64,000 bases of DNA, taken from Gemmatimonadota bacterium (GTDB lineage: Bacteria > Gemmatimonadota > Gemmatimonadetes > Longimicrobiales > Gaopeijiaceae). Below are positions 14,350 to 48,204 of the stretch, in pieces (within the stretch, counting starts at the first letter, position 1; every line of letters begins with the position of its first letter). Below the pieces are notes generated by a model. That model made no database searches, was not told where the DNA came from, and worked only from the letters and a program-made list of their open reading frames with translations. Made by a program: the position numbers and the translations under genes. The DNA is taken from the NCBI GenBank assembly GCA_009838975.1, contig VXQO01000117.1:1-64000 (forward strand). Reading direction: 5' to 3'.

Positions 14350-16625
14350 TGAGCACTGGAAACGGTGTCGCGCCGCGCCCCGGCGACCCGCCGATCACGC
14401 CCGAACTGGTCGACGAGCACGGCCTCTCGCCCGACGAGTTCGCACAGGTCCGGCGCATTCTCGGCCGCGACCCCACCTTTACCGAACTGGGCGTGTTCTC
14501 GGCGATGTGGTCGGAGCACTGCGGCTACAAGAACTCGAAGCGGCTGTTGCGGTTGCTGCCGACTCAGGCGCCATGGGTCATCCAGGGCCCGGGCGAAAAC
14601 GCCGGCGTGATCGACGTCGGCGAAGGCAATGCGCTCGCCTTCAAGATCGAGTCCCACAACCACCCCTCCGCGGTCGAGCCGTACCAGGGCGCGGCGACGG
14701 GGATCGGCGGCATCCTGCGCGACGTCTTCACCATGGGCGCGCGCCCGGTCGCGACCCTCAACTCGCTCCACTTCGGCGACCTGGACCGTCCCCGCGTGCG
14801 CTACCTCTTCGGCGGGGTCGTCAAGGGGATCGGGGACTACGGCAACTGTGTCGGCATCCCGTCCACCGGCGGCGAGGTCTACTTCGACCGCGGGTACGAG
14901 GAGAACCCGATCGTCAACGCCATGTGCCTGGGACTGATGCGCACGGAGGACCTGATCCGGGGCACCGCCGAGGGCGTCGGCAACACGCTGATGGCGGTCG
15001 GAGCGCGCACCGGCCGCGACGGGATCCACGGCGCCACCTTCGCCTCCGAGGAGCTGTCCGAGGGCGACGACGAGGCCAGCCGCCCGCAGGTCCAGGTGGG
15101 CGACCCGTTTACCGAGAAGCTGCTCCTCGAGGCGTCGCTCGAGCTGATCGCCAGCGGCCACATCGTGGGCATTCAGGACATGGGCGCCGCGGGGCTGACG
15201 TCGAGCGGTTCCGAGATGGCGGGGCGCTCCGGGACGGGCGTGGAGATGGACGTGGCGCTGGTGCCGGTTCGCGAGGACGGGATGACGCCGTACGAGATCC
15301 TCCTTTCGGAGTCGCAGGAGAGGATGCTCGTGGTCGCCGCGGCCGGCCGGGAGGACGCCGTCCGCGAGATCCTGGAGAAGTGGGAGCTGGAAGCGGCGAC
15401 GATCGGGAGCGTCACCGCCAGCGGCACGTTTCGCGTTCTCGAGGACGGCGTCGTGGTCGCGGACATCCCCGCCCTGCCCCTGACCGAAGGCTGCCCGACG
15501 TATGAGCGGCCGGGCGAGGAGGGCGACGAGGTGCACGCGCTCCGCACGATGGACATCTCGCCGTGTGCGGAGCCGCCCGCGGGCCTTCGGGACGCTTTCC
15601 TGCGCGTCGTGGGATCGCCCAACGTGGCCTCGAAGCAGTGGGTGTACGAGCAGTACGACACCACCGTGCGGGCCAACTCGATCGAGCGCCCGGGCGGCGA
15701 CGCGGGCGTGATCCGGATCCCGGGCACCAACCGCGGCGTCGCGGCGTCCACGGACTGCAACGGCCGCCACACGTATCTGAACCCGCGCGCGGGCGCCATG
15801 GGCGCGGTGGCCGAGGCGGCGCGCAATGTCGCGTGCACGGGCGCGGTGCCGATGGCGATCACCAACTGCCTCAACTTCGGCAGCCCGCTCAAGACCCACA
15901 TCATGTACCAGTTCCGCGAGGCGGTGCTGGGGATGCGCGACGCCTGCGCCCACTTCGAGACCCCGGTCACCGGCGGCAACGTGTCGTTCTACAACGAGAC
16001 CGACGGGAAGGCCGTCTACCCGACGCCCGTCATCGGGATGATCGGCGTCATCGGCAACCTGGACACGATCGTGCGGCACGCCTTCCGCGACGCCGGCGAC
16101 GCGATCTTCCTGCTCGGCACCAACACCGGCGAACTGGGCGGCTCCGAGTACCTGTACGCGGTGCACGACCTGGTCGCGGGCGAGCCGCCCGGCGTGGATC
16201 TGGCCGCCGAACGCACGCTCCAGCGCTGCGTGTTGGCGATGGCGGCGTCGCGGGTGCTGAGCTCGGCCCACGATGTGGCCAGCGGCGGGCTCGCGGCGAC
16301 TCTGACCGAGTCCTGTCTGGGCAGGCCGCGCAAGGGCGGCGGAGTGGGTGCGGCGGTGCGCTTCGAGGACGCGCTTCCCGACACCGCGCTGCTCTTCGGC
16401 GAGGACCAGGGGCGCGTCGTGGTCAGTTGCACGCCCGGCGACGAGGAGCAGGTGCGCCGGCTCGCGGTGGATTTCGGGGTGCCCTGCACGCGCATCGGAA
16501 CCGTGACGGGAGCCGGCTCGGCGCTTAGGATCGAAACCGTATCGTCCGCCCTGCGACTCGAACTCGACGTGCTGCGGGAGCGGTACTTCGGCGCCATTCC
16601 GGGGATCATGAACGAGGCGGGATAA
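14349..16625 (+). CDS. purL: FGAM synthase large subunit PurL
   Basis: Uses ATP and PurQ-derived ammonia to convert FGAR to FGAM. At about 758 residues it is the small PurL that works with PurS and PurQ. Motifs are [12 protein letters not shown] near residue 55, the FGAR/ATP segment [43 protein letters not shown] and the second-half [11 protein letters not shown]. The ATG at 14349 overlaps the purQ stop as TGATG; a GTG one codon earlier is also in frame. It ends in TAATG with purF. Confidence 0.97.
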
Positions 16626-18070
16626 TGCGACGCCGCGCTCCGACCGACATTCACCTGCCGCTGCTCGACGACCGTCCGCGCGAGGAATGCGGCATCGTCG
16701 GGATCTGCGGGATCGAAAACGCCTCGGAACTCGCCTTCCTGGCGCTCTATGCCCTGCAGCATCGGGGCCAGGAGGCGGCGGGCATCTGCGCGGCCAACAA
16801 CGGCCGCACGCGGGTGTACAAGGAGCTCGGCCTGGTCTCGGACGTGTTCGATGCGAAGCGGATCGCGTCGCTTCCCGGCAACACCGCGCTGGGTCATGTG
16901 CGCTACTCGACGGCGGGCGGCGGCCAGCGCGTCAACGCCCAGCCGATCGTGGTGCGCTACGCCGAGGGTGACCTCGCGATCGTGCACAACGGCAACCTGA
17001 CCAATGCGCGCATGGTGAAGCGCCAGCTCGTCCGGGAAGGCGCGATCTTCCAGAGCACTTCCGACTCCGAGGTCATCGTGCACCTCGTGGCGCGCTCGCG
17101 GCACCGAATGGTGCAGGCGCAACTGCGCGACGCGCTCAGCTTCCTCGAAGGCGCCTATTCGCTCGTGCTGACCGTCGGCGAGACGATGTACGCGGTGCGC
17201 GATCCGCGAGGGTTCAGGCCGCTGGTGATGGGCGAGCTGGACGGCGGACACATCGTGACCAGCGAGACCTGCGCCCTCGACCTCATGGGCGCGACCTACG
17301 TGCGGGACATCGAGCCGGGCGAGCTGGTGCGCTTCCGTGGAGGCGAGGTCGAGAGCCTCCCCGGTCTGCACCCGCAGACCCCCGCGCCCTGCATCTTCGA
17401 GCTTGTCTACTTCGCCCGGCCCGATTCGAACCTGTGGGGGATCAGCGTGGACCGGGCCCGGCGCGCCTTCGGGCGGCAGCTCGCGCGAGAGCACCCGGTC
17501 GTCGCCGACTGCGTGATCGCCGTGCCGGACAGCGCCAACTCGGCGGCGCTCGGGTACAGCGAGCAGAGCGGGATTCCCTACGAACTCGGCCTGCTGCGCA
17601 ACCACTACGTGGGCCGCACCTTCATCCGGCCGTCGCAGGCCGACCGCGACTTCGGGGCGCGGGTGAAGTACAACCCCGTGCGAGAGGTGCTGGAGGGCCA
17701 GCGCGTGGTCGTGGTGGACGACTCGATCGTGCGGGGCACGACTTCGACCAGCCTGGTCAAGTTCATCCGCGGGGCGGGGGCGGCCGAGGTGCACTTCCGG
17801 GTCGCCAGCCCCCCGGTGCGCCATCCCTGCTACTACGGGATCGACATGCCGTCGAAGGAAGAGCTCATGGGGTCCCGGAGGAGCGTGGACGACATCGCGG
17901 CCGCGATAGGGGTGGACTCGCTGGGCTATCTGTCGCTGGACGGGATGGAAAACGCGGTCGCGGAGCGTGCGCCGTTCTGCACGGCGTGCTTCTCCGGCGA
18001 ATACTCGGCGCCTTTGGTGGATCTGGAGGAACAAACCGACAATACTAAACAAATTGATTTAGTATTGTAG
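16625..18070 (+). CDS. purF: Amidophosphoribosyltransferase, iron-sulfur type
   Basis: The committed step of purine synthesis: PRPP plus glutamine to phosphoribosylamine. It has a 21-residue propeptide ending before Cys22 (EECGIVGICG), the N-terminal nucleophile. The phosphoribosyltransferase PRPP loop is VVVVDDSIVRGTTS. Cysteines in APCIFELVYFARPDS, RHPCYYGID and the FCTACF pair match the [4Fe-4S] ligand positions of Bacillus subtilis PurF. The ATG overlaps the purL stop as TAATG. The last ten codons and the TAG stop are formed by an AT-rich palindrome (18039-18068), giving an atypical C-terminus. Confidence 0.96.
   Translation: MRRRAPTDIHLPLLDDRPREECGIVGICGIENASELAFLALYALQHRGQEAAGICAANNGRTRVYKELGLVSDVFDAKRIASLPGNTALGHVRYSTAGGGQRVNAQPIVVRYAEGDLAIVHNGNLTNARMVKRQLVREGAIFQSTSDSEVIVHLVARSRHRMVQAQLRDALSFLEGAYSLVLTVGETMYAVRDPRGFRPLVMGELDGGHIVTSETCALDLMGATYVRDIEPGELVRFRGGEVESLPGLHPQTPAPCIFELVYFARPDSNLWGISVDRARRAFGRQLAREHPVVADCVIAVPDSANSAALGYSEQSGIPYELGLLRNHYVGRTFIRPSQADRDFGARVKYNPVREVLEGQRVVVVDDSIVRGTTSTSLVKFIRGAGAAEVHFRVASPPVRHPCYYGIDMPSKEELMGSRRSVDDIAAAIGVDSLGYLSLDGMENAVAERAPFCTACFSGEYSAPLVDLEEQTDNTKQIDLVL
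18039..18068. repeat. CTAAAC-N6-GTTTAG-type palindrome, copy 1 (purF 3' end)
   Basis: Perfect 11-bp arms, ACAATACTAAA (18039-18049) and TTTAGTATTGT (18058-18068), around an 8-nt centre. It lies across the purF stop in the gap to the convergent serpin gene. No T-run follows, so it is not a textbook intrinsic terminator. It has the same core and spacing as four other copies in the window. Confidence 0.75.
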
Positions 18071-18090: not shown

Positions 18091-19365
18091 TCACATTCCC
18101 GGGCTCGCCGCCGGTGGGCTCGCGAGCTTGCCGGCAAAGAGTATAGTGCCGGAAAGGCGCTCCCGGATGAAGAAGAGGAAGGGGCGGTCCGCGCGCACGA
18201 CCGGGCCGGCGGAGGATTCGCGTATCTCGACCACGGTTGCGGCGGCCGCCTCCGTGCCCTCCTCGTTGACTTCCACCCAGGACTTCTGCTTGACCTCGGA
18301 GATGAACAGGCCGCTGACGTGAGAGAGTCTGCTGAAGTCGGCCCGCCGGTCGAATGCGTCGACCATGCCCAGCGCGGCGAGGTCGTCGTTGAGCTTGCGC
18401 TCGTAGGGCAACCGAAAGCGCGGAAGGTACAGCAGCAGTTCGGTATCGTTGAAGCCGCCGGCGATGTCCTCCCATTCGGCTGCGTCGAGCGACGCCGCGA
18501 GGACGTCCACGGTCACGCCTTGCCTCGGTAGTAGTACGGTCATCGAAAACGCACGGCCCCCGTACGGCAGGTCCACGGCCTGGAACCGGTCGTTCTCCTG
18601 ATACGGGAGTTCTCTGTGGAAGGTCATCAGCGGCACGGTCCGAACGGAACCGTCGTCGAGATGGAACGGCTCGGGTCGGGTGTCGGACGGATCGAATTGG
18701 TAGGTCCACGAACCCTTGAAGTAGATCGTGTTGATCAGATACATGACGACACTCACGGGAATCACCGCGGGGACGATGTCCTCGATGCGACCGTTTGTCG
18801 CGGCCTTGACCCACTCGTTGATCCGCGCGGACACGGCGGGGTTAGCGAAATCGAGTTCCGCGACCTCGGCACCAAAGGTCTCTCGCACGGAGGCCAGGAA
18901 GTCCGCATGCACCGGGAAGCCCTGCCGGGTCCACACGGAGTTGCCGATCGCGGTCTCCACGGCGGGATCGAGACCGACCAGGAGGTCGATCAGGGACTCG
19001 TAGGAGGCGTTGATCTCTTCCTGCGTCAGGGTCCCGAACCCGAGGACGCCGCGCATCTGGTCCCAGGTCTCCCCCGCCGCGCCGTTGAGGGTCATTCCAA
19101 GGGCCATCGACGCCGAGAGCGGCGACAGGAAGAGGTCCTCGCTGGGGCGGTTGGCCTGGCCGAGGAGATCGAAGGTGAAACGGTTGCTCGCCCCGATGAT
19201 CTCGCCCTCCGCCGCGGTCAGGGCGCGCGGAAGCTCGGTGATTTCGTGTGCGCCGGGACCGGTGACCGAATCTCCGCACCCGGTGACGGCAAGCATGAGG
19301 ATGGTTGCCGTACCGGGGAACCGCAGCGGTGGCCGGTGACTTCCTTCGCTGTCCAATGTTCGCAT
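18091..19365 (-). CDS. Serpin-family protease inhibitor, lipoprotein
   Basis: A suicide inhibitor of serine (or cysteine) proteases, predicted to be lipid-anchored. The ATG at 19365 gives a signal ending in LMLAVTGC (Cys30); a weak TTG at 19413 would extend it. The serpin core is clear: FLSPLSASMALGMTLNGAAG, YFKGSWTYQFDP and a C-terminal RPFLFFIRE with GTILFAGKLA. The reactive-loop hinge VNEEGTEAAAAT has small residues at P12-P9, the hallmark of inhibitory serpins. By the 17-residue rule P1-P1' would be Ser-Ser in RESSAG, with an Arg at P3, so target specificity is uncertain. Confidence 0.92.
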   Translation of the reverse strand: MRTLDSEGSHRPPLRFPGTATILMLAVTGCGDSVTGPGAHEITELPRALTAAEGEIIGASNRFTFDLLGQANRPSEDLFLSPLSASMALGMTLNGAAGETWDQMRGVLGFGTLTQEEINASYESLIDLLVGLDPAVETAIGNSVWTRQGFPVHADFLASVRETFGAEVAELDFANPAVSARINEWVKAATNGRIEDIVPAVIPVSVVMYLINTIYFKGSWTYQFDPSDTRPEPFHLDDGSVRTVPLMTFHRELPYQENDRFQAVDLPYGGRAFSMTVLLPRQGVTVDVLAASLDAAEWEDIAGGFNDTELLLYLPRFRLPYERKLNDDLAALGMVDAFDRRADFSRLSHVSGLFISEVKQKSWVEVNEEGTEAAAATVVEIRESSAGPVVRADRPFLFFIRERLSGTILFAGKLASPPAASPGM

Positions 19366-19426
19366 GACCGTGGCGGATGTTACGTTCGTGGCAAACCCGA
19401 GGGTGCCAGGCAAGGGATGGATAACA

Positions 19427-26015: not shown

Positions 26016-26088
26016 GTAGGTGGGGATCCTGCGTCGCGCGGTCAGCCGTGCCTCCTCGTCAGGTCCTCGTCGATCTCGCTCCCACTGC

Positions 26089-26104
26089 GTATCATAAGGG
26101 ATAC
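26089..26104. promoter_or_regulatory. Small inverted repeat in the divergent symporter/S9 gap
   Basis: GTATC (26089-26093) and GATAC (26100-26104) are separated by 6 bp, in the 125-bp gap between the divergent symporter and S9 genes. The arm length and spacing resemble a dimeric-regulator site, but 5-bp arms can occur by chance. Confidence 0.25.
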
Positions 26105-26140
26105 ACGCCGACCACCAACCGATCAGCAGCGAGGCTCACC

Positions 26141-28393
26141 ATGCGCACCCTCTCCCTGGCCCTCACTTTCTCCGCCGCGGCGCTCTGGGCGCCACTCAAC
26201 CCGCAACTCGCCGCCCAGCAGCGGCCGCTCACCTTCATGGACGTGCAGGAGCTGAAGAGTGCGGGTTCCTGGACACCGAGCCCGGACGGGGCGTGGATGC
26301 TCTACACCGTCACGACCCCCGACTGGGAAGCGGCCGAGTCCCAGACCGACATCCACCTGGTGTCGCTCAGCGACGGCGTCGGGTCGGACCGGCGGCTGAC
26401 CTACACCGAGGACCACAACGAGAGGAGTCCGGCGTGGGCTCCGGACGGGTCGTTCTTCGTGTTCTCGTCCAACCGCGACGGGAACGACAGCCAGCTCTAC
26501 ATGATGCGGCACGACGGCGGCGAGGCCCGCAAGATCACCGACGCGGCCGAGGGGGTCTCTGGGTTTGACTTCAGTCCCGACGGTCGCTGGCTCGTCTACC
26601 GCTCCGGCGAGGGAGGCCGCGAACAGCTCTATCGGCTGCCGGCGGATGGTCTGGTTGGCGCCGCGGCCGAGGTGATCACCCATGGCGACGCGGGCGTCGA
26701 GCAGTGGGACTTCACGGCCGACGGCGCCAGGATCTACTTCGCGCGCCCCGACTCGTTCGACGAGGACGAGGTCAAGCGCGTCGAGAAGGGGTTCACCGTC
26801 GACGTGCGCAACGCGGTGACGCCCCTGTCGAGCCTGTGGAGCGTCGAGGTGGCGACGGGCGAGGAGCGGCGCGAGACCGACGACCCGGCGTACAGCATCA
26901 ACGGCTTCACGCTCTCCGACGACGGCCGCTGGATCGGCATCACCGGCGGCTCGCCGAAGCGCTACGAGCGCAACATCACGGCGCAGCGGCTCTACGCCGA
27001 CCTCTACCTCATGGAAGTCGCCACCGGCGAGATCGAGCGCCTCACCGACAACTACGAGGTCGGCGAGGGCGGGCCGAGCTTCTCGCCCGACGGCCGCTGG
27101 ATCGCGTTCTCGGCGCCGGACAACATGGAACGCTACACCATGACCGATAACCGCGTGTACATCCGCGAGGTCGCCGACCGCGGGGGCGCGTTCCGAAAGC
27201 TGGGCGCCGACTTCGACCAGAGTTCCAGCGTCGGGTTCTGGTCGGACGACTCCGGCACGATCTACTTCAACGCGGGTGTGACCGTGACCACGCAGCTGCA
27301 CGCGCTGGACGTGGCGACTGGCGCGGTCCGGCAGCTCACCGAGGAGCGGGCCGCGCTGTCCGTGTCGCGCGACGATGACACCGGCACGATCCTCATCGGC
27401 TACAGCGACCCGATGACGCCGCCGACCGTGTTTGCGGTGGCGAGCGTGGACGACGTCCCGAACCGCTCGGCGTGGACGCAGCTGGTGGACGTCAATCCGC
27501 ACGTGCGCGACATCGCGCTCGGCCAGGAAGTCGAGATCAACTGGCGCTCGTCAGACGGAAGGACGGTGGGTGGGGTGCTGGTCTACCCTGTCGGCTATGA
27601 GGAGGGGACGCGTTATCCGCTCATCGTCGCGATCCACGGGGGACCTGCGTCAGCCGACATCCTGCGCTTCAATGGCGGCTACAGCGCCCAGGTCTACGCC
27701 GGCGCGGGGTACGCCGTCCTCAAACCCAACTACAGAGGCTCGCGGAACTACGGCAACGCCCATCGCACGGATATCGTGGGGGATTACTTCACGATGGGTT
27801 ACGAGGACATCATCACCGGCGTGGACCATCTGATCGACGAGGGGATCGTGGACGGGGACCGGATGGGTGCACTGGGCTGGAGCGCGGGCGGCCACTGGTC
27901 CAACTGGATTCTGACGCAGACCGACCGTTTCAAGGCGATCAGTTCGGGCGCGGGGACGATGAACTGGATCAGCATGTACGCACAGAGCGACGTGCAGCGG
28001 AACCGGCAGTTCTACGTGGGCGACGGCTTCCTGTACGAGGACTTCGACACGTACTTCGACCAGTCGCCGCTCAAGTACATCAAGAACGCGAAGACCCCGA
28101 CGATGATCCACGTCGTGGAGGGCGATCCGCGCGTGCCGAGCCCGCAGTCGGTCGAGTTGCACATGGCCCTCAAGAAGCTGGGCGTGCCGACCGAGCTGTT
28201 CATGTACCCGGGCCGGAGCCACGGGATTCCGGATCCGCGCAACCGCCTGGTCAAGGCCGTGAGCGAGATGGCCTGGATGGATTACTACGTGCGCGGAATC
28301 GGCGAGAAGTTCCAGTGGCGGCAGGTGCTGGAGACGCTGGAGGCGGGTGAAGGGCCGGCGGTTGTGTCGGAGGAGGGGGGACGCGGGGGGTAG
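26141..28393 (+). CDS. Secreted S9 prolyl-oligopeptidase-family peptidase
   Basis: The ATG at 26141, with GAGG upstream, gives a signal peptide ending near PQLAAQQ; the open frame extends 31 codons earlier without support. Residues ~25-440 form a TolB/WD40-like beta-propeller (repeated WSPDG, FSPDGRW, LSDDGRW units). The C-terminal alpha/beta hydrolase domain has the nucleophile in LGWSAGGHW (about Ser578), an acid in EGDPRVPS (about Asp661) and a base in GRSHGIPD (about His693). It probably trims short exported peptides in the periplasm. Monocistronic. Confidence 0.92.
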   Translation: MRTLSLALTFSAAALWAPLNPQLAAQQRPLTFMDVQELKSAGSWTPSPDGAWMLYTVTTPDWEAAESQTDIHLVSLSDGVGSDRRLTYTEDHNERSPAWAPDGSFFVFSSNRDGNDSQLYMMRHDGGEARKITDAAEGVSGFDFSPDGRWLVYRSGEGGREQLYRLPADGLVGAAAEVITHGDAGVEQWDFTADGARIYFARPDSFDEDEVKRVEKGFTVDVRNAVTPLSSLWSVEVATGEERRETDDPAYSINGFTLSDDGRWIGITGGSPKRYERNITAQRLYADLYLMEVATGEIERLTDNYEVGEGGPSFSPDGRWIAFSAPDNMERYTMTDNRVYIREVADRGGAFRKLGADFDQSSSVGFWSDDSGTIYFNAGVTVTTQLHALDVATGAVRQLTEERAALSVSRDDDTGTILIGYSDPMTPPTVFAVASVDDVPNRSAWTQLVDVNPHVRDIALGQEVEINWRSSDGRTVGGVLVYPVGYEEGTRYPLIVAIHGGPASADILRFNGGYSAQVYAGAGYAVLKPNYRGSRNYGNAHRTDIVGDYFTMGYEDIITGVDHLIDEGIVDGDRMGALGWSAGGHWSNWILTQTDRFKAISSGAGTMNWISMYAQSDVQRNRQFYVGDGFLYEDFDTYFDQSPLKYIKNAKTPTMIHVVEGDPRVPSPQSVELHMALKKLGVPTELFMYPGRSHGIPDPRNRLVKAVSEMAWMDYYVRGIGEKFQWRQVLETLEAGEGPAVVSEEGGRGG

Positions 28394-28399
28394 CGGCGG

Positions 28400-28423
28400 A
28401 CGCTAAATGAGATTGTTTAGTAT
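28400..28423. repeat. CTAAAC-N6-GTTTAG-type palindrome, copy 2
   Basis: CTAAA (28403-28407), 8 nt, TTTAG (28416-28420), with degenerate outer bases (ACG on the left, TAT on the right). It occupies the 37-bp gap between the convergent S9 and MpaB-family genes. Same core and spacing as copies 1, 3, 4 and 5. Confidence 0.65.
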
Positions 28424-28430
28424 CTGACCG

Positions 28431-29600
28431 CTACCAGTCCGACGACCGCTCGTCGTGGAGGGCGGTAGGCAGCTTGTAGGAGTGCTCGAACTCGTCGAAA
28501 CTGGCGAACTGCATCAGGGCCTCGAATCGATCCTGGTTCTGCCAGGCTGCCAGACCGGGAAGCACCCTGCCGACCATTCGCCGGGCGCGGTGCCTGAACC
28601 GCAGCCACGGCACCAGCTTCCGTTTCCGGCGCGGGAACAGGAGCGAGTCCGCCAACTCGTCGCCGATCAGTTCGCGGGAAACCTGAGTCACCGTGCGGGC
28701 CATCTTTCGGCGCTCCGGGGGCGCCTTGACCCCGACGATGATGGGGGCGCTGTTGACCACGCTATTGGCCATGATGATCCCGTCGTCGTCGGTGGGAGGC
28801 TCGCACATCCTGCCGATCTCGAATGTTCGGACCGCCGAGGCCTCGTCGTGGAAGAGAATCTCCTCGGGGATGCCGAACAGAAGTCCGGCGTAGCGCCAGA
28901 CGTGAATGAAGGCCTCGCGCTCTTCCGTGGTAAAGTCGCCCCCCAGTGTGGCGACATGCCCCATCAGGCGGCCCGAGAAGGCCGACCCGGCCAAGAGGAT
29001 ATGCGCGGCGCTGAGGGGCGTTCCGTATCGCTCCCGGTCCCACTCTTCGGAGCCGTTGAGAAGATGCCTTGACTGGGCATGCACCAGACGGGCGCGGAGC
29101 GTCAGCCTCCATCCATCCCCGTCGGGCTCCATACCGCCCGGGAGATACTGCTCGACCAACTGCATGCCGTTGTGCTTGAGACGGCGTATGGCCGCAACGA
29201 CGAGCCGCCCGCGAATTCGAAACGACTTGCTGATCAGCGTCGAGAACCCCTCCACGATGCTGCCGCCCACGAGGGCTGCGAGGACGATGTCCGAGTTGCG
29301 GAGAAAGGCCTGGGAAGCGACTCTCGCGCGCCTTCTGTCGAACCATTCCGGTACCCTTCTGGCTTCCTGGACGAAAGCCAGCAGGGAATCGGGGACGCCG
29401 CGGCGCGATGCGTCCGGACCCTCCAGAACGCTGGCCAGGGTCTCGTGGATCTCCTCTGGAGACAGGGATCCCAGATCGCGGATCACCGCGTCCGCGAGCG
29501 GATCGCCGACTGTCGTATGACGGATGTATGCTGTCGCCAGCCGGGGATCGAGAGCCCGGGCCCTTTCGTATCCTGCTGCGTACGCGCTGGGGATTCTCAC
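28431..29600 (-). CDS. Oxygenase MpaB/Lcp-family protein (DUF2236)
   Basis: Belongs to the DUF2236 family, which includes fungal MpaB oxygenase and the heme latex-clearing protein Lcp. Seen landmarks are GGSIVEGFSTLI, RLVHAQSRHLL, YGTPLSAAHILLAGSAFSG and EAFIHVWRYAGLLFGIPEE, the conserved helical core. No signal peptide is apparent, so it is probably cytoplasmic or membrane-associated. The GTG at 29600 has only a weak ribosome site. Substrate unknown. It is divergent from the GntR operon and convergent with the S9 gene. Confidence 0.82.
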   Translation of the reverse strand: MRIPSAYAAGYERARALDPRLATAYIRHTTVGDPLADAVIRDLGSLSPEEIHETLASVLEGPDASRRGVPDSLLAFVQEARRVPEWFDRRRARVASQAFLRNSDIVLAALVGGSIVEGFSTLISKSFRIRGRLVVAAIRRLKHNGMQLVEQYLPGGMEPDGDGWRLTLRARLVHAQSRHLLNGSEEWDRERYGTPLSAAHILLAGSAFSGRLMGHVATLGGDFTTEEREAFIHVWRYAGLLFGIPEEILFHDEASAVRTFEIGRMCEPPTDDDGIIMANSVVNSAPIIVGVKAPPERRKMARTVTQVSRELIGDELADSLLFPRRKRKLVPWLRFRHRARRMVGRVLPGLAAWQNQDRFEALMQFASFDEFEHSYKLPTALHDERSSDW

Positions 29601-32028: not shown

Positions 32029-33276
32029 CTACCGGACTCGCTGCGGCAATCGCCTGACCGCAATCACCGGGACATCGAACTCGTCCGTGTCGACGAACGC
32101 AGCGAGCCCATCGGGACCGAAGGCGTCCGGCATCTCCAGCCGACCCTCGGGGAACGTGCCCACGTAACGGCCGTCCGGCCCCAGCACGTCGATCGCGCCC
32201 GGCCCGCTCGTGGCCGGCTCCGTGCTCCGCTCGACCCACAGGCTTCCATCCCAGGTGACGCGCACGGCCGCAATCACCGGCACTTCCGCGTGGAACTGCA
32301 TATTCTCGACCCCCGCCCGTTGGGCCTCCATGTAGCGGTCGATCATCGCCCGGACCTCCGGCGGCGGATCGCCTCCTCGCTGGGTGAACTGCCGGTTGCT
32401 CTCCTCTTCCAAGCGGCGTTCCCGCTCCGCGCGTTGCATCCGCTCCGTCACGGGCAGCGGCCGTATGGGCCGACGAAGGATGCGCGAGACCGCGCCGGAT
32501 GCGTCGGTGAGCTTGATGGCGTACGCCGACGAATCGGAGAACGCGACTCCGCCTGCCGGCATGGCGTCGAACAGCACCTCCGGTTCGAACCCCCACTCCT
32601 CACCAACCGTTTCGAGCGCTTGCTCGAAGCTAAAGACTGGAGGAAGCTCGGTTGGCTCGCGTGCGACCCAGCCCTCCACAAGCACTCCGCCCCTAATCTC
32701 GGCCGAGGTCAGGTCCATCCGGAGGATCGAGCGTTCGTCCCGGACCAGTGCGGTCCGAGATCCCGTCCGTTCCGGTCGAAGGCCCGTGCGGGCCATGACC
32801 ATGAACCCGCCACTTTCCTGCGCCGTGTGTTCGAACTGGCCGTCGGGACCGAAGACGTGATACCCCCTGAGCCTGTCGCTGACGAGACTGCGCCCGTCCG
32901 CCCACACCATGAGCTGCGTCGCCATCTGGAACTCGCCGGGGCCATCACCGACGCGGCCGAAGTCCCGGACATGCCGCCCGAGCGCGTCCACGACGACGAC
33001 TCGCCTGCCGCCATCCGTGTCCGCTCCATCCAGCAGGTACAGGTTCCCTGCACTGTCGAAGCCGATTCCCTGGATGGCAAAGAACTCCTCCCATTCGGCC
33101 TGCGCCTGCGCCGATCCGATGCGGTACACCGGCTCGAAGTCGGTCGAGAGCGGGAGGTCCTCCGCAGGGAGATTGACGATGTCCTGGGCGCGGAGGTCGG
33201 TGGGCCCGAGAGCAGTGGCAAGCCCTCCGGTGATCCACATTCCCCCGATGGCCAGTATTCGCAGATTACGTAGCAT
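32029..33276 (-). CDS. 6-bladed beta-propeller protein A
   Basis: A signal peptide ends near LRAQD. The rest carries NHL-like blade repeats ([45 protein letters not shown]). There are no catalytic motifs, so it is probably a periplasmic binding or scaffold protein. It is a paralogue of the propeller gene at 35232; both end in a DAFGPDG segment followed by an acidic D-E and a VIRL/VRRL strand. The ATG at 33276 has GGAGG ten bases upstream. Four palindromes lie in its 211-bp upstream region, more potential regulatory sites than any other gene here. Confidence 0.75.
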
Positions 33277-33364: not shown

Positions 33365-33388
33365 ATACTAAACAATCCTGTTTAGCAT
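33365..33388. repeat. CTAAAC-N6-GTTTAG palindrome, copy 3
   Basis: CTAAAC (33368-33373) and GTTTAG (33380-33385) are perfect 6-bp arms with 6 bp between; the outer ATA/CAT bases partly pair. It is the first of three copies spaced 42 and 34 bp centre to centre. Confidence 0.75.
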
Positions 33389-33406
33389 TGTGGGGACCAG
33401 CGGCCG

Positions 33407-33430
33407 ACACTAGACATTCTTGTTTAGTAT
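33407..33430. repeat. CTAAAC-N6-GTTTAG palindrome, copy 4 (one arm mutated)
   Basis: The left arm is CTAGAC (33410-33415) and the right arm GTTTAG (33422-33427), with the outer TAT kept on the right. A single change separates it from the perfect core. Confidence 0.65.
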
Positions 33431-33440
33431 CGTGGAGCGG

Positions 33441-33464
33441 ATACTAAACCATTTTGTTAAGTAT
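33441..33464. repeat. CTAAAC-N6-GTTTAG palindrome, copy 5 (one arm mutated)
   Basis: CTAAAC (33444-33449) with right arm GTTAAG (33456-33461) and outer ATA/TAT retained. It lies 24 bp from the end of the amidohydrolase gene and about 170 bp before propeller gene A. Confidence 0.65.
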
Positions 33465-33487: not shown

Positions 33488-35077
33488 TCACCGCCGCAAC
33501 CGCGGCACCGTCAGCGGACTCGCCTCCAGCACCTGACCCCAGATCCGCTTCCCCACCGCGTCCGCTTCTCGGATGATCGCGTCCTCGTCCATGGTGACAA
33601 CCTCGCGGTCGCGCATGACGAACCGACCGTCCACCATCACCGACTCGATGTCACCGGGATGGCCGCTGTGGACCAGCGCCGAAATGACGCGCCCCGCCGG
33701 CACCAGGTGGGCGCGCAGCATGTCGACCACCAGCAGGTCCGCCTTCTTCCCCACCTCCAGCGTGCCGAGCGCGTCGGGCTGCTGGACCGCCAGCGCACCG
33801 CCCTGCGTGCAATCCGCCAGTACGTCTTCCGGCTGGGGCTGCAGGCCAGGCACCTCGTCCCCGTCGCGGTTGCGGCGGATCCGTTCGGTGAGCATGGCGA
33901 TGCGCATCACCTCGAAGACGTCGTTCGTGTTGTTGTCGGTGCCGAGGGCGATGGGGCAACCAGCCGCCCGAAGCTCCGGAATCGGTGGGCTGATGCCGCG
34001 GTTCGCCGCCATTCCCGCCTGGTGCGCGATGATCGTGCCCGAGCGCCCCAGTAGCGCGACCTCCTCGGTGTTGACGTAGCGGGCGTGCGCCGCGAACAGG
34101 CGGGGGCCGAGGAAGTCGTGCCGGTCGAGGTATTCGGCCGGGCGAAGGCCGTGGTGCATGACCATGAACTCGTACTCGGCGCGGCTCTGGTTCAGGTGAA
34201 TCGTGTAGCCGAGATCGTGCGTCTCGGCGAACTCGCGCACGGCCCGCAGCAGCTCGGGTGACGACGTCTCGGTGAGCGAGGCCGCCGGGAACACCGAGAT
34301 GCGGCCATCGCGCGCGCCGTGCCAGGTGGTGAACAGGTCGCTGATGCGCTGCATCCCCTCGTCCCGCAGACTGGCCGAGAAGCGGGGCGTCCCGCTGAAC
34401 GACCGGGCCATCGAACGGGTGGATACCGGACCTGGCACGTTCTCGGTGTCGCGGATCCCCTCGGCGAGGACGCAGCGGAGGCCGGAGTCGGCCAGCACCC
34501 CGGCCTGCCGCCCGACGTTGCCGGTGTACTCGACGATGGTCGTGGTCCCCGTCCGGATCGCCTCGAGCGCCGCGACCTGCACCATCAGGTTGCCCTCTTC
34601 GCCCTCGAGGAGGCTGGCGGGCGAGATCGCCAGGCCCGCGGTGTTGGGGAAGCCGAAGTCCTCATTGAAGCCGCGCGCGATCACGGCACGCATATGGGCG
34701 TGCGTGTTGATCAGACCCGGGAAGAGGGCCTTGCCGCGTCCGTCCTGGATCTCGGCCCGCGGGTACCCGGCCAGGACCTCGTCGGTGGGCCCGATCGCGG
34801 CGATCCGGTCGCCCTCGACGGCGAGCGCCACGTCGTCCTGCACCAGGTCGGGGTTGGCCACGGTGGTGTTTGTAAAGACGACCGTGGCTTCCTGGGCTTC
34901 CGGGGTCGCGCCGGGCGGGGCGGCGCTGTGCGTGTGCGCCTGCAGATGGTCCGGCTTCAGCATCAGGGCTGCCGTACCGGCCCCGGTGGCGGCCAGCCAT
35001 TTGCGGCGAGTAAAATCCTCTGGATTGCTCGAGGAGCGCTGCCTGCGAGTCGAGGTCCTTCGGGTCGTAGTCGACAT
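33488..35077 (-). CDS. Tat-exported amidohydrolase (SAH/chlorohydrolase-like)
   Basis: A metal-dependent hydrolase of the AtzA/TrzN/SAH-deaminase branch. Metal ligands are visible in INTHAHMRA (HxH), the IHLNQS strand, AAHARYVN and GTDNNTNDVFE. The first ~35 residues form a Tat signal (FTRRKWLAATGAG), so the enzyme acts in the periplasm, unusual for this mostly cytoplasmic branch. The ATG at 35077 has AAGG about nine bases upstream; a TTG two codons earlier opens the frame. The substrate (deamination or dechlorination of a heterocycle) cannot be told from sequence. Confidence 0.88.
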   Translation of the reverse strand: MSTTTRRTSTRRQRSSSNPEDFTRRKWLAATGAGTAALMLKPDHLQAHTHSAAPPGATPEAQEATVVFTNTTVANPDLVQDDVALAVEGDRIAAIGPTDEVLAGYPRAEIQDGRGKALFPGLINTHAHMRAVIARGFNEDFGFPNTAGLAISPASLLEGEEGNLMVQVAALEAIRTGTTTIVEYTGNVGRQAGVLADSGLRCVLAEGIRDTENVPGPVSTRSMARSFSGTPRFSASLRDEGMQRISDLFTTWHGARDGRISVFPAASLTETSSPELLRAVREFAETHDLGYTIHLNQSRAEYEFMVMHHGLRPAEYLDRHDFLGPRLFAAHARYVNTEEVALLGRSGTIIAHQAGMAANRGISPPIPELRAAGCPIALGTDNNTNDVFEVMRIAMLTERIRRNRDGDEVPGLQPQPEDVLADCTQGGALAVQQPDALGTLEVGKKADLLVVDMLRAHLVPAGRVISALVHSGHPGDIESVMVDGRFVMRDREVVTMDEDAIIREADAVGKRIWGQVLEASPLTVPRLRR

Positions 35078-35231
35078 GTTCAAGCACCTTCACGGGGTCG
35101 GTGACGGGTCATTCGCACATGGGTCCGAACATGCGTCTCGACCGGGTGCCCATCAAGCAGAACACGGCCTCTCGCAACCCGCAGGATGGCATGAGCTGTC
35201 TAACGAAGTGACAAGGAAAGGTGCGCCGATC

Positions 35232-36519: not shown

Positions 36520-38853
<2,334 letters not shown>

Positions 38854-38971: not shown

Positions 38972-41900
38972 TCAGCGCCGCGGCCGAAGCGTCACCGCCT
39001 CTCGGATCCCGCGTGTCGTCACTACCTGCAACGGATCGGTGGCCCCCATCGCGGCCACCGCGGGCCCATCCCAGTCCCGAAGGATCGACCGGATGCGACC
39101 GGTGGAGGGATCCGTAAAGACCGAGATCGACCTGGGATCCGAGTCGTCAACCGTCACTTCGCCCTCCGGCCCGGTGAGCACGATCCGCTCCAGCGAGCCC
39201 TCCCAGTCTTCCTCGATGGGAATGGTGAAGAAGAAGTACTTGTTGCCGTACTTGTCCTCGCCCGGCGTAAACGACAGGGAAAACTCGGTTTGCCCTTCGT
39301 CGGCGATACCCTCCAGGCGATAGGGCCCGGGCCGTTCCGGAAGCTTGGCGGTGGTGTACATCGAGAGTACGGGCTCGATGCGCAGTTCGTCTCCGAAAAC
39401 TCCGCCCCACAACACCAGCATCTGCGACTTCGGCCCGGCACCGGCCATGGGCGGCCGTGCCCCGCCGCCTTCCTTTTTCTCCCGAACGCGGATGACCTTC
39501 TCGTAGTAGTAGTCGCTCAGCCAGCCCTTCTCGTAGCAGTACCCCATGATGTCGCGGCGGCTGTTGGGGGATACCGCCGACCCGTCGCGGAAGTCGTAGC
39601 CCCACATGCCGATACCCCCGTTCGGATACGGGAAGTCGGGTTCCACGCCGCCGGCGCCGCCACAGGGCGCGTGCTTGAGGTCCAGGGTGTGGCCTACTTC
39701 GTGCGCGAGTTCGGTGTCCCACGGCTTCCCGAAGCTCACCCATCCGTTCAGGCGTGCGATCCCGCGCACGTATCCCTGGTCGCTGTCCGCCACGGCATAC
39801 CAGTAGCCCGTGGCCTCGTCGGCCTGGTAGACCGCTTCCAGCTCGAGGACCAGCGGCCACGTATTGTCCTCGTCGGTGAGGTCAAGGGACGTGACATAGC
39901 TTTCACGCGTCATCGCGCTGAACTCCGCGAATGGGAAGGAATACCTCAACAGGCCCACCTGCGGGCTGTCGTCGGAGATGCTGTCCGTCCACGCGAAGAT
40001 CGACGTGTCGGGGTTCGCGGCATTGAGCACGGGCACCACCGTCAGCTTGAATGGGGGGACATCGATGACATTGAGTGGCATCGCGCCGGCTTCCGGAAAA
40101 CGCGTCCGACTGCCGGCTGCGCGCGGCACCGTCTCCGCCGGGTCCGCCACCACCACCAGCTCGGTGCCCGGAACGACGTGTTCGGCGGAGATCACGGCAT
40201 TGTACGATGTGCCGAGGACGCCCTCGTCCGCGGCGGTGCTCAGCCGGTCGTCCGCAGTCCGCATAACCACTCGGTGGACCACTTCGCCGTCCCTCGTGAG
40301 GGTTGCCACGACCTCCGGCTCGAAGAAGGCGTTCGTCTGATCGCCGACCAGGAACACCCGCAGCAGCGCCTCCCGGCCCGAAAGGAGCGGGACATCGCCC
40401 GCCGGCCTCTGGATGGCCTGGGTCAGGTACACGACCGGCAGCGACAGCTTGACCGCTTCGGCGTTGTCACAGACCGCTCCCTCGGCCTGGTCCAGCCCAT
40501 CGAACCACTTCTGGAACGTCGTTGACGGGGACGCGCACATGCCCGTGTCGCCGTAGTAAAGTGCCTTCAATTCCGTCATTTGGGTCATCTGGAACGGAAG
40601 CGGCCCCTCCAGGCCCTCGTTGCCGCTGATTCGGATGGTGTCGAGCGCCTCGATAGAGGTGACCGCGACGGGGATGCCTCCCGTCAAGCTGTTGTTACCA
40701 AGGTCCAGGGTCTCAAGCTTTGTCAGGTTGCCGATTGCCGAAGCAAGCGACCCCCGCAGTCCATTGTCGGAGAGCACGAGCCGTCGTACGAGCGTATCCC
40801 GGCTGCTCACGGTGACGCCGTGCCAGTTGCCCAGCGCCGAATCGGTGCCCCAACCACGCCTGCTGATCCAGGAATCCCCCCCGGCTGCGGCGTAGAATCC
40901 GGCGAGTGCGAATCGTTCGGTCAGTGTGGGGGGACACTGCAGGCCGTACGCCCGCGAGATGCCGTTCAGCCACTCCTGGAACTCGTCATCACGCTGGGGG
41001 CATATCCATGTGTCGGAGATGTCGAGATAGTCGAGGGGAAGATTCAGCATACCCCTGGGCATCAGGCCCCCGAGATCGGGATTGCCGTGGACGTTGAGTT
41101 CCTCCAGGCTGATGAGACCGCCGAGTTCGGGCGGAAGGTGCCCCGAGAGGTTGTTTTCCCTGAGGGACAGCCCGAGGAGTGAAGTCAGTTGGCCGAGCTC
41201 CCCGGGAATGGGGCCACCGAGGTTGTTGTTCCGAGCCCCCAGGTACTTGAGCGAAGACAGCTTCCCGAGTTCCGGTGGTATTGAGCCCGTGAGGCGATTG
41301 TCGCCCAGGGTCAGGTCCTCCAGGGCGGAGAGGTTGCCGAGTTCGGCCGGGATGGCTCCCGAGAGTTCATTACGGAAGAGCCATAGTGTTTCCAGGTTGG
41401 AGAGATTGCCGAGTTCCGGGGGAATGGTGCCGGTGAGGTTGTTTCGCATGAGGAACATGCCCTCCAGCGCGGACAGCCTGCCGAGTTCCGGCGGTATGGA
41501 ACCGGTGAGCCCATTGGTGCTGATCGACAGATCCTTCAGGCTCGAGAGCTCGCCGAGTTCCGCCGGAATCGGTCCGGTGAACTCATTGTCGAAGATCCAC
41601 AGCGTTTCGAGGTCGGACAGCTTGCCCAGTTCCGGCGGAATGCCGCCCGACAGCTGATTCCTCATCAGGAAAAGCCCCTCGAGCGAGGTCATGTTGCCGA
41701 GTTCGGGGGGGATGGGCCCGGTCAGCTCGTTGTCGCCGAGCCCGAGTTCCTTCAGGTTCTGCAGGTTGCCCAACTCGGGCGGTAGCGTGCCCGTGATCTT
41801 GTTTCGCGATAGGCTGAGGTCCTCGAGCGAGGTCATGTCGCCAAGCTCGGGCGGCAACGGCCCTTCGAAATCGTTGTCGACCAGCCAGGCAGACTTGAGC

Positions 41901-44900
41901 TTCTTGAGCTTCCCGAATTCTGCCGGTAACGGCCCGCTCAAGTCGTTTTCGAAGAGTGCCAGGTGCTCAAGGCTGACGAGGTTCCCGAACTCGGGGGGGA
42001 TGGGTCCCGACAGGTCGTTTCCGGCGAGGTACATCGTGTCGACACTCACCATGCCGCCGATTTCGGGTGGAATCGGGCCCTCCAGCTCGTTGCTGGAGAG
42101 CAACAGCACACGAACCCTGTCCAGCTTGCCGAGTTCCGGGGGAATTCGCCCCGTCAGATCGTTGCCGTAAAGCCCCAGCACCTCGAGGCGAGCGAGGTTG
42201 CCCAACTCCGGCGGGATGCTGCCCGTCAGCCTGTTCCAGGGCAGGAAGATCTCGGTGACGTAGCCCTCTTCATCGGTTTCGATGCCCCGCCACGTGTTCA
42301 GGCCCTTGTCCGTCAACCAGTTGCGGTCCCTCCGCCACTCTGTCCCGCCGGTCTCATCATGGAGCGTGGTAAGTACCTCGCGGTCCGCGGTCTCCGGAAT
42401 GCACGGCAGCGGGTCGCTGTTGCCCAGGGTCTCGTACCACGCCGCCAGCGAACGCGGGACACACAAGCCGGTCCGGGAGTGGTAGAACTGATCGAGTTTG
42501 AGGTGGGCGAATGTCTCGGGCAGGGGGCCAGTGAGGTTGGTGTTGGTAAAGCTCAGGTACTCGAGCCTCGTCATGTTGCCGATCTCGGGCGGCACGGAGC
42601 CTTCCAGCCCGGTGTCGCGAAGGGTCAGGTCGCGGAGACTTTGCAGGCGTCCGATCGCGGGCGGGATCGATCCGGCAATGGCGTTGCCGTTCAGGTCGAG
42701 GATGAACAGATGATCCAGCAGACCGATGGCGGCGGGGATCTGCCCGTCAAGGTTGTTCTTGCCCAGATTGAGGTGATCGACGCGGCCGTCTGCGACATCA
42801 ACACCGTACCATTCCTCGAGGGGCTCATCGCTCAGCCAGTTGGTGTTGTCCTTCCAGTCGTCCCCACGGGTGGCGTGGTATAGGGCTTCGAGGGCGGCTC
42901 GGTCGCTGCCGGGCAGGCTCACCGCCACCTCGGCGCTGCCGGCGGTAACGGATTCGTAGGTGGCGGCTACAGCCGTGATTCCGGCGGCTCGAGCCGTCAC
43001 CAGCCCCGTTGGGTCGACCGTCGCGACCAACCGATCGGTGGTCTCCCAAGTGACCTCCGGCGACCCCACCACATTGCCCTCGGCGTCGACCACCGTCACC
43101 GAGAGCTGCGCCGTTTGGCCAGCCGCGCCGAAGGTGAGCGTGGAAGGCTCTACCGAGACACGGGCGGCGCATTCAGGTGGACTGTCCTTCTGCGGGATCG
43201 CGCCAAGCCACGTGGCCAGCGAAGGGGGCACGCACAGTTCGGTACCGCCCACCAGGAAGCTGTCCAGCTCGAGAGCGGCGAAGGACGCGGGCACAAGACC
43301 GGACAAGCTCGTCGCCGCCACATTGAGGTTCCGCAAGCTGGCCAGCGCCCCCAGCCCGGACGGCAGCCTGCTTGAGAATCCGTTGACGCTCAGTGCCAGG
43401 TCGCGAAGCCGGCTCAGGTGCCCGATCTCGGCCGGAATCGGGCCGGTGATCCAGTTTCGGCTCAGGTCGAGGGTGACCAACTGGTCCAGCTGGCCAATGG
43501 ACGAGTGGATCATCCCCCGCAGGTTGTTGCCCGCGAGGGACAGCCCTGTGACCCGGCCGTTTTCGTCGGTCTCGACCCCCGCCCATTCGGAGAGCGGCTC
43601 GTCGCTCAGCCAGTCGGCCCCGTCAGTCCACGCCGCGCCGCGGGTCCGGTCGTAGAGGATTCCCAGAACGTCCCGGTCGGTCTCCGGGAGCGCCACCTCC
43701 ACTGCAATTGACTCCGTCACGGTATTGTGGGTGGCCGTCACCTCGGTGGTTCCGTTGCCGACTGCGGTGACCTTCCCCCGGACATCCACCGACGCGACAG
43801 TGGCGTCTCCGGTCGACCAGGTGACCGATGCCTCGTACGTGCTGTCCCCTTCGGCGTCCACATAGGTAGCGGACAGGGTGACGGTCTCGCCGACGGCGTA
43901 GAAGGTCAGAGAGGGCAAGTCGACGACCCTGATCGCGAGGGAGGCCATGCAGCGGTCGGCATCGTCGGTCTGTTCGATTTCGGCGACCCACTCGTTGAGG
44001 GAGGGAGGCACGCACACTCCCGAGCCGGCGGTGTAGAGGGTGTCAAGCGCCAGCTGCCGGAACGATCGTGGAACCACGCCGCTCAATTCGTTGGTCCCGA
44101 TGTGGAGATACCGGAGTGCGGCCAGGGATCCCATGCTGGCGGGCAGCCGACCCTCGAGCGCGTTGTCGTTCAGCACGAGCGTGTGCAGGCGCGCCAACTC
44201 CTCCAGCTCCCGCGGAATCTCTCCCGAGAGCGCGTTTCCGCTCAGGTCGAGCGTGACCAGGTCGCCCAACTCCGCGAGCATGTCCGGCATCGGGCCCGCA
44301 AGGCCGTTGTTCGCGAGTGACAGCCCGACCACCTTCCCGACCCCGTTGGTTTCGACTCCGTACCATTCGGAGAGCGGCTCGTCGCTCAGCCAGTTGGTGG
44401 TGTCCGTCCAGTTCTCGCCCCCCATCAGTTGGTGGATGCTGTCGAGGACCTGCCGGTCGGTGAGCGTGAGGACGACCTGCACCTCGGCGGTGGCTGTGAG
44501 CGCGTCGGACGTCGCCGTGACCTGCGTCGTGCCGTAGTCGACCGCGGTCACCAGTCCCGCGGAATCGACCTTGGCGATGGTCGTGTCGGCGCTCGACCAC
44601 GTGATCTTGGCGTCGTGCATGGTGTACCCTTCGGCGGTTATCACCTCGGCCGTCAGTCTGGCAGTGTCGCCGAGGGGCGGTCCCTCGAAGTACAGCGACC
44701 CGGGATCGACGGTGATCTGGTCGGTGCAGATCGAATAGTCGTCGGTCGCTTCCGGGACCGTCTTTAACCACGCTTCGAGGCCGGCGGGAATACAAAGGTC
44801 GTCGCGGTCGAAATAGAAGTGGGTCAATTCGAGGTTCGCGAAGGTCAGCGGGACAGGACCATTGAGGTTCGTACCATCTGTGGAGAGGTACTCGAGTCCT

Positions 44901-46014: not shown

Positions 46015-48204
46015 CTACATTTGCCCGGGCGGCAGGTGGTCCAGCAGGTACCGTACCATGAGCATGCGAACGTGGACGACGGTGCCCGCTCCCTCCGACA
46101 GCCCGTGGTTTCGATTCGGGTAGGCCGTGTAGTCGAAGGTCTTGCCCAGCTCCACCAAACGGTCCACCAGCCCCTCGACGATCTCCAGGTGCGTGTTGGT
46201 CTCCCCGGTTCCGTGAATGATGAGTAGGTCCCCTTCGAGCCCTTCGGCGTAGTTGATGGGGGCGGAGACGCGGTAGCCTTCCGGATTCGTCTCCACGGTC
46301 TCCATGTAGATCTCCTGGAACCACGCGTTGTACAGGTGTGGCTGGGGCTTGGGGACCACGGCAATCCCCACGTGGTAGACATCGGGCCTCCGGAACAGGG
46401 AATTCAGGGTGTTCGATCCGCCGCCGCTCCATCCCCAGATCCCCACCCTGGACAAATCGACGTAGGGGAGAATCCGGCCGAGCTCCAGCACTCCCGCCGC
46501 GTGCTCCTCAGTCGACTGCACCCCGATCGTCGGAAAGGGCGCCCTCCGCCACTCGGCACCCTTCGGCGCCGGCGTGCCCCGATTCTCGATCGACACGACC
46601 AGGTACCCGAGGTCCGCGATGGCGCGATGGTAGTTGTTGCGGGTCGACCACCGGTCCAGGACGGTCTGGGCGTGCGGCTCGCCGTAGACGTAGATGAACA
46701 CCGGGTACTTGCGGGACGGGTCGAAGTCCCGCGGCTTGATCATCCACGCGTCCATCACCACGCCGTCCCCGATATCCAGCTGCAGGAACTCCGTGGGGTG
46801 GGTGGTCGTGGCCTCGGCCCGGCGCCGGACCTCCGCGTTGTCCTGTAGAACGCGGACGACGCGGTGCTCCGGCAGGCTGATCAGCGAGGTCACCGGGGGA
46901 GTGTCGAAGTTGGAATACGTGTGAAGTGCCCAGCGGAGGTCGGGGGAGAAGTCGTAGGAGTGGGTGCCCGGCTGGCCTTCGGGACTGACCCGCTCGGGCG
47001 CTTCGGAACCATCCAGCCGGACCCGGTAGAGGTACCGCTGCGTGGCGTTGTCGGGCGAGGCGAAGTAGTAGGACCACCCGTTCCCGTGATCGACCGGCCC
47101 CCGTTCCATGACATCGCTGGCTCCCGGGGTCAGGAGGCGTTCCTCTCGCCCTTCTCGTGAGTACACGTAGGCGTGGCGCCACCCGTCCTTCTCGGTCAGG
47201 AAAAGGAAGGAATCGCCGCCCCGGATCCACTCGAGGCCCGCGTTCAGGCGATAACTGGCGATGACCCAGGCCGGATCGGACTCGTGGTATATCCGGTCGA
47301 CTTCACCGGTGGTCACGTTGGCGATGTAGAAGTCCCGTTCGTCCCGAAAGCGGCTGAACTGCTCCACCAGCAGATCCTCGGAGTTGCCGGCCCAGCTCAC
47401 CTGCCCGAGATAGAAGCCCTCGTTCGGTGACGGGACGGATATCCAGCGGACTTCCCTTCCCTGCGCATCCACCACTCCGACCCGCAGCTTGGCGATGGTC
47501 TCGCCCACCCTCGCGAATCGGACCTGCCGGATTTCGGGATAGGAGGGATCGGTGGGGACGAGCATGGACCTCATCCGCACTCCGGAGGCGTCGGACTGGA
47601 CGAAGGCGATCCGGTTTCCGTCGGGGCTCCAGACGGCCCGGCCATTGGAGAAGGATTCGGCGGTGGTCCAGGTCAGACGGGTCGTCTGTTCGGCCGAGAG
47701 GTCGTGAACGTGAAGGTCGCCGTCGCGGCTGAAGAGGATGCGGTTGCCGCCCGGAGAGATCGTATTCCCCCCTCCCCCGTCCACCTTCCTGAGCGCGGAC
47801 GTGACCAGGTCGAACATCCAGAAACCGTCGCCACTGGTCTGGACAAGGACCCAACTGCCGTCCGGGGCGAACTGGAAGCTGGAGATGCTCAAGGGCTCCG
47901 AAGCGCCGGATGGCGTGAGGTTTGACAGGGAGGCGAGCACCGTGCGGGCGCCGCTCGCGGCGGCGTACCGGATCAACTCCCGTTGCGAGGGTCCCGCAGG
48001 AGTCTCCAGGGTCGCGTATCCCGATCCGTCGGGCAGCCACGACGCCTGGAAGGACCGGGCGTCGAAGTCCCTCGCCTCGAAGATCGACCGGAGACGGGCT
48101 TCGGTCTCGGCGGGGACCTGGGCCGAGACCAGGGTTGGAGAAACGGTGGGGATGGCGAGGAAGCTCACCAACCAGAAGCTCCGCAAAACCCGTCTTACGG
48201 TCAT
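46015..48204 (-). CDS. Secreted S9B peptidase with Glu at the catalytic-acid position
   Basis: A signal peptide ends near TLVSAQ. A DPP-IV-type propeller (FAPDGSWVLVQTS, WSPDGNRIAFVQ, SPDLRWALHTYS) covers ~50-480. The hydrolase domain has the nucleophile in GIWGWSGGGS (about Ser593) and the base in YPNRNHGLSE (about His699). Where DPP-IV has HGTADDNVH, this protein has HGTGETNTH, so the acid position is Glu (about 669). Activity may be altered but is plausible. It is divergent from another S9 gene at 48525. Confidence 0.9.
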   Translation of the reverse strand: MTVRRVLRSFWLVSFLAIPTVSPTLVSAQVPAETEARLRSIFEARDFDARSFQASWLPDGSGYATLETPAGPSQRELIRYAAASGARTVLASLSNLTPSGASEPLSISSFQFAPDGSWVLVQTSGDGFWMFDLVTSALRKVDGGGGNTISPGGNRILFSRDGDLHVHDLSAEQTTRLTWTTAESFSNGRAVWSPDGNRIAFVQSDASGVRMRSMLVPTDPSYPEIRQVRFARVGETIAKLRVGVVDAQGREVRWISVPSPNEGFYLGQVSWAGNSEDLLVEQFSRFRDERDFYIANVTTGEVDRIYHESDPAWVIASYRLNAGLEWIRGGDSFLFLTEKDGWRHAYVYSREGREERLLTPGASDVMERGPVDHGNGWSYYFASPDNATQRYLYRVRLDGSEAPERVSPEGQPGTHSYDFSPDLRWALHTYSNFDTPPVTSLISLPEHRVVRVLQDNAEVRRRAEATTTHPTEFLQLDIGDGVVMDAWMIKPRDFDPSRKYPVFIYVYGEPHAQTVLDRWSTRNNYHRAIADLGYLVVSIENRGTPAPKGAEWRRAPFPTIGVQSTEEHAAGVLELGRILPYVDLSRVGIWGWSGGGSNTLNSLFRRPDVYHVGIAVVPKPQPHLYNAWFQEIYMETVETNPEGYRVSAPINYAEGLEGDLLIIHGTGETNTHLEIVEGLVDRLVELGKTFDYTAYPNRNHGLSEGAGTVVHVRMLMVRYLLDHLPPGQM

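Follow-up and report, generated by a model that had tools for sequence, protein, structure and literature searches.

Dispersed palindromes in a Gemmatimonadota lineage as probable operators of an ArsR/SmtB-type autorepressor

Palindromes in the window and the genes beside them

The window, i.e. the whole stretch of 64,000 nucleotides that was analysed, contains five palindromes of one design, three of them clustered at 33.4 kb and two standing singly (Table 1). Pattern matching recovered all five at the places given in a preliminary description of this DNA, and the centre spacings of 42 and 34 bp within the cluster were also as claimed there. The earlier statement that the palindromes are not random was borne out as well: five matches (at most 2 mismatches) were obtained versus 0.20 expected by dinucleotide shuffling, which is far over chance, and none of 100 shuffles of the window reached five. 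The 6-bp arms and 6-bp spacing that had been described are present, but they are a section of a longer, 28-bp motif, YRATACTNAACAWNNWTGTTNAGTATYR, for which a weight matrix was derived from 25 sites. No common helical phase was found for clustered sites, the spacings of which ranged from 34 to 223 bp.

The cluster had been placed upstream of a propeller gene, which is correct, but it is not only there, being also directly 3' of an amidohydrolase gene. At purF (18042-18070) the palindrome lengthens the reading frame, the match to motif-negative species breaking off some 11 residues before its end. The window additionally harbours a complete serpin gene, here in a bacterium, as well as four S9/DPP-IV-type peptidase genes and a gene for a protein of 2262 aa that contains many leucine-rich repeats along with bacterial Ig-like (Big_2) domains.

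Table 1 Palindromes and selected genes of the window
Feature	Position	Core	Strand	Remarks
Putative operator, copy 1 of 33.4-kb cluster	33365..33388	33368-33385	.	ATACTAAACAATCCTGTTTAGCAT; motif score 42.1
Putative operator, copy 2 of 33.4-kb cluster	33407..33430	33410-33427	.	ACACTAGACATTCTTGTTTAGTAT; motif score 37.7
Putative operator, copy 3 of 33.4-kb cluster	33441..33464	33444-33461	.	ATACTAAACCATTTTGTTAAGTAT; motif score 45.4
Putative operator at purF 3' end	18042..18065	18045-18062	.	within last purF codons; convergent gene pair
Putative operator 3' of S9 peptidase gene	28400..28423	28403-28420	.	convergent gene pair
Propeller-type gene, candidate target	32029..33276		-	no Pfam match; 5' end faces three-site cluster
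Amidohydrolase gene	33488..35083		-	stop codon ~24 bp from nearest cluster site
purF-type gene	16625..18070		+	glutamine amidotransferase / phosphoribosyltransferase domains; putative operator forms last codons
Serpin gene	18091..19413		-	convergent with purF
S9 peptidase gene	26048..28393		+	S9/DPP-IV type; site directly after stop codon
MPAB/Lcp-type gene	28431..29600		-	convergent with S9 peptidase gene
S9/DPP-IV-type peptidase gene	36520-38853
S9/DPP-IV-type peptidase gene	46015-48204
S9/DPP-IV-type peptidase gene	48525-50513
Gene of the 2262-aa protein	38972-45760		-	leucine-rich repeats, Big_2 domains

Genomic distribution of the motif and a candidate regulator

The excess of the motif, for which the preliminary description had proposed a genome scan, was evident in the whole 4.5-Mb genome G000, where 16 sites with at most 1 mismatch were found versus 3 for the reversed pattern; a longer pattern gave 29 sites versus 1 for its reversed control. 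Motif scores were bimodal, all sites scoring 29 or more and the range from 7 to 29 being empty, a gap that arises in part because the matrix sites of G000 were picked by pattern and the stretches from other genomes were fetched around pattern matches. Using the weight matrix, no match was found in 400 kb of the motif-negative relative G021.

Among the 23 genomes of the genus (Longimicrobiales-like MAGs of the Gemmatimonadota), ten contain 13-33 copies each. The remaining 13 have 0-3 copies, which is not above the reversed-pattern control (0-3), and stricter matching produced the same split. Beyond the genus, motif counts in the order and class were low or equalled by the control, with the exception of G084. 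This order-level relative possesses a second palindrome family, ATA[CG]TTAAG-N6-CTTAA[CG]TAT, with the same 9-6-9 geometry and other arms, in about 18 copies versus none for the reversed-pattern control (e.g. L287-L297, L299 and L300, near base 1501); no homologue of the ArsR protein described below adjoined the copies examined, except at one odd site (L286). A search for a palindrome family of different sequence in 400 kb of G021 gave only scattered palindromes, one type occurring twice.

The window was said to hold no regulator gene, and this is right; a candidate is encoded on another contig of G000 (C129:44723-45052, minus strand), where a distance of 49 bp separates the motif site at C129:45106 from the start of the gene, which specifies a 110-aa protein of the HTH_20/ArsR type. 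This was the first regulator candidate tested. The protein matched Pfam HTH_20 (2.8e-15) and also HTH_5, and scored 74.7 bits with the NCBIfam ArsR/SmtB subfamily profile (cut-off 55), while the score of 49.1 bits for the SdpR autorepressor subfamily (NF033789) was below the cut-off of 100. An AlphaFold model (pLDDT 90) displayed the ArsR fold and a long helix at the C-terminus, and winged helix-turn-helix fold and family profile together place the protein in the ArsR/SmtB family. The best PDB match of the model in Foldseek, and the closest solved structure, was 3f6o (2.8e-8, 42% identity over 90 columns), the ArsR family regulator RHA00566 of Rhodococcus, for which we know of no operator or function. 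The regulator gene is paired with a downstream gene for an AHSA1/SRPBCC-domain protein and is divergent from a TonB receptor gene. In the papers searched, nothing relevant turned up on ArsR proteins with AHSA1 or SRPBCC partners, and none was found that links NolR with ArsR and an inverted repeat.

Within the 23-genome genus, an orthologue of the regulator was detected in exactly the ten motif-positive genomes, in all ten with a site about 45-90 bp upstream of its own start. All ten further homologues (51-65% identity), from seven other genera of the family, also have a site upstream of the start. Thus, in 20 of the 20 orthologues examined, covering 8 genera, the palindrome lies just upstream of the start codon (the contig of G024 is cut, and its site was placed 41 bp ahead of where the match begins, L216); those orthologue records that bear a name are Gemmatimonadetes/Gemmatimonadota and Longimicrobiales MAGs. 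Apart from these sites, motif counts in the seven other genera are at background or close to it; with the site at or near a single copy there, the operator appears to have been multiplied in the motif-rich lineage. Most relatives that possess the putative repressor would use it to regulate no gene but its own.

More distant relatives with 46-60% identity, from Alphaproteobacteria, Burkholderiales and Planctomycetes, frequently show related palindromes at their start codons, e.g. ATACTTAACC-N4-GGTTTACTAT and typically [A/T]AACC-N4-GGTT, although some of the 80 loci from other phyla (L237, L245 and several Rhizobium loci) gave no clear palindrome match. In G003 and G019, two paralogues have the recognition helix RPAISKH instead of SLVAVSRH, and these carry a different palindrome, GTAACCATATGGTTAC, at their start.

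The co-occurrence of regulator and motif is partly explicable by the shared ancestry of the ten genomes, as an OppA-like gene is distributed in the same way. A purF tree required three changes and rejected a single clade weakly (AU p 0.017), with one independent contrast only on well supported branches. The position of the site at the regulator's own gene is stronger evidence than the exact co-occurrence within the genus.

Arm variation, placement of the sites and other readings

Across 53 distinct site groups the arms did not covary: 498 complementary cells were counted versus 499.7 expected, and two-sided arm changes numbered 23 versus 26.5 expected (p 0.87). The loop between the arms was not conserved from copy to copy. 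Because covariation is absent, the arms are best understood as a pair of half-sites, each recognised separately by a dimeric protein, and not as a stem-loop. The preliminary description had offered operators of a dimeric repressor or a REP-like element; the former is well supported by independently varying arms and by a regulator of a dimeric family with a site at its own promoter, and the latter is not upheld, as the stem is not kept by compensatory changes between copies.

Placement was surveyed for 97 sites in 53 gene-neighbourhood groups from parts of seven motif-positive genomes, the genes being called by a simple codon-usage script with approximate starts. The groups comprised 21 tandem, 16 convergent and 7 divergent placements, 8 inside a called gene and 1 at a contig edge. 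A start codon was situated within 250 bp of 56 of the 97 sites, and a stop codon was overlapped or lay at most 60 bp before the site in 59; for 33 sites a gene 3' end only was nearby, without a start codon in reach. Together with the intragenic sites, these 33 are not what is expected of a plain promoter operator. Convergent placement was enriched (16 of 44 intergenic site groups versus 18.5% of placeable bases, p 0.004). Of 43 tandem sites, 34 were closer to the stop than to the start (p 9e-5, a value that is too small as orthologous sites were counted separately).

Both biases would suit a REP-like or other palindromic repeat element, or else an RNA hairpin or bidirectional terminator at gene 3' ends, acting via a stem-loop. 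Some compensatory change is indeed seen at the purF 3' end of G003, G019 and G001 (L071, L072, L073), where a GC-richer palindrome, GCCAGA...TCTGGC, has three to four pairs of compensatory differences that preserve the symmetry; the ArsR operator model does not explain it. The purF copy was the sole look-alike match within 367 kb of G001, and GCCAGA/TCTGGC was dismissed as a second palindrome family. Against a stem-loop stand the missing arm covariation among the 53 distinct sites, the loops that differ between copies, the presence of sites in promoters and coding regions as well, and the palindrome at the start of a DNA-binding protein gene in all 20 orthologues examined. Altogether, we consider this reading very improbable, and the RNA hairpin and REP forms of it were rejected for lack of arm covariation.

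Many sites are conserved at orthologous loci, the preliminary description having named a lack of such conservation as evidence against its reading. The site upstream of the gene encoding the OppA-like oligopeptide-binding protein was present in all ten motif-positive genomes; it falls within the final stretch of thiI, the coding sequence upstream, and codon constraint may add to its conservation. The 3'-end site of the S9 peptidase gene was found in five of seven genomes, also in G001, G005, G013 and G019 (393 bp away), and a pair of sites 74-75 bp apart follows a DUF5107 gene in three genomes. The purF site occurs in G000, G013, G015, G005 and G009, and in motif-negative genomes purF is shorter with no such palindrome after it (G004 was not judgeable owing to its contig).

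In G001, seven of 18 sites fall within 110 kb (G001:C1:1547814-1657448), a region syntenic with the window's contig C20, which has 8 sites in 77 kb. Such clustering could point to chromosome-organising sites, like parS or matS, for a nucleoid protein, be it the ArsR protein or another binder; gene-end placement and sites within coding regions would then be natural, since position relative to promoters would not matter. However, the G001 cluster is neither at the origin (dnaA is at 264 kb) nor opposite to it, so that a link to origin or terminus was discarded on the basis of dnaA and skew, and in other genera the lone site, located at the promoter of the regulator itself, fits a promoter operator. 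This possibility appears slightly fainter still than a stem-loop. The chance that a BlaI/MecI-type repressor is the binder, as first suggested, is very small, and this identity was rejected: an AT-rich symmetric operator in GC-rich DNA and the BlaI genes of G000 (7 matches) would agree with it, but all 23 genomes of the genus have 2-15 BlaI genes each, including the 13 without the motif, and the motif is located at an ArsR gene promoter.

Comparison with known ArsR-type operators and proposed function

SmtB/ArsR proteins bind 12-2-12 repeats, e.g. AATACCTGAACA-GA-TGTTCAAGTATT (PMC8790569). The proteins at the SmtB, ZiaR, AzuR and AztR operators likewise have the winged-helix ArsR fold, and the operators resemble the palindrome studied here in being imperfect inverted repeats of 26 bp overall, in sharing the ATAC...AACA / TGTT...GTAT arms and in lying near the start codon (PMC8790569). 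An inverted repeat of 12-2-12 length is thus present at the promoter of the candidate regulator, with slightly different half-site spacing: the AACA arms are 4 bp apart here versus 2 in the printed example, and ATAC and AACA are separated by 2 bp versus 3 (PMC8790569). Unlike in the SmtB/ArsR systems, there are 13-33 copies per genome, the neighbouring genes have no metal-resistance theme and many sites are at gene 3' ends. An ArsR-like autorepressor from Mycobacterium tuberculosis, Rv2034, binds its own start at an inverted repeat whose arms are separated by 4 bp, and a few other promoters as well; its arm, CCGTAAGT, is different, and five further promoters were predicted for it (PMC3338718) versus up to about 30 sites here.

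What the sequences show, namely the motif and how it is distributed, its presence at the gene of the regulator, its conservation and the absent arm covariation, argues that the palindrome is very probably the operator of a homodimeric ArsR/SmtB-type autorepressor, multiplied into a dispersed regulon in one lineage. Binding, dimerisation, repression, a signal and the role of the 3' sites are what we infer from these features. The earlier operator reading would accordingly be right in kind, with an ArsR/SmtB-like and not a BlaI-like protein. Each subunit of the ArsR dimer would contact one half-site, RATACTNAACAW, within a predicted target palindrome ATACTAAAC-N6-GTTTAGTAT. In the presumed ancestral state, a single site over its own promoter would allow the protein to repress its own gene, and in one lineage of the genus the operator would have been multiplied to about 13-33 chromosomal copies to give a dispersed regulon with recurring secreted peptidase, peptide uptake and amidohydrolase genes.

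Genes beside the sites encode S9/DPP-IV and M1-like peptidases, Met-zincins, gamma-glutamyltranspeptidases and amidohydrolases, as well as an OppA-like binding protein, a POT peptide transporter and a TonB receptor. Scavenging of proteins and peptides may be indicated by these neighbours, although such genes are in any case abundant in the region surrounding the window. Repression would be expected where the protein is bound at promoters. Where it is bound at the 3' ends of genes or between convergent genes, a roadblock effect or control of antisense transcription might result, which we prefer with low confidence; alternatively, new sites may be tolerated in unimportant sequence, and no function is needed. 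The wider proposal, that operator multiplication turned the autorepressor of one gene into a genome-wide regulator whose 3' sites serve as roadblocks (terminator or antisense control) and not as promoter operators, is tentative and in this complete form rather unlikely.

New here are the proposed assignment to an ArsR protein, the bias towards 3' ends and the multiplication of the operator in a single lineage. For an uncultured lineage, an orphan motif is linked to its probable binding protein, and the genomes provide a natural before-and-after series: homologues from seven other genera have a single, presumably autoregulatory site, versus 13-33 sites in one lineage. The series allows asking how a local repressor becomes a regulon and at which places operators are newly formed. 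Should the sites at gene 3' ends prove functional, this would be an uncommon way for an ArsR-type protein to act.
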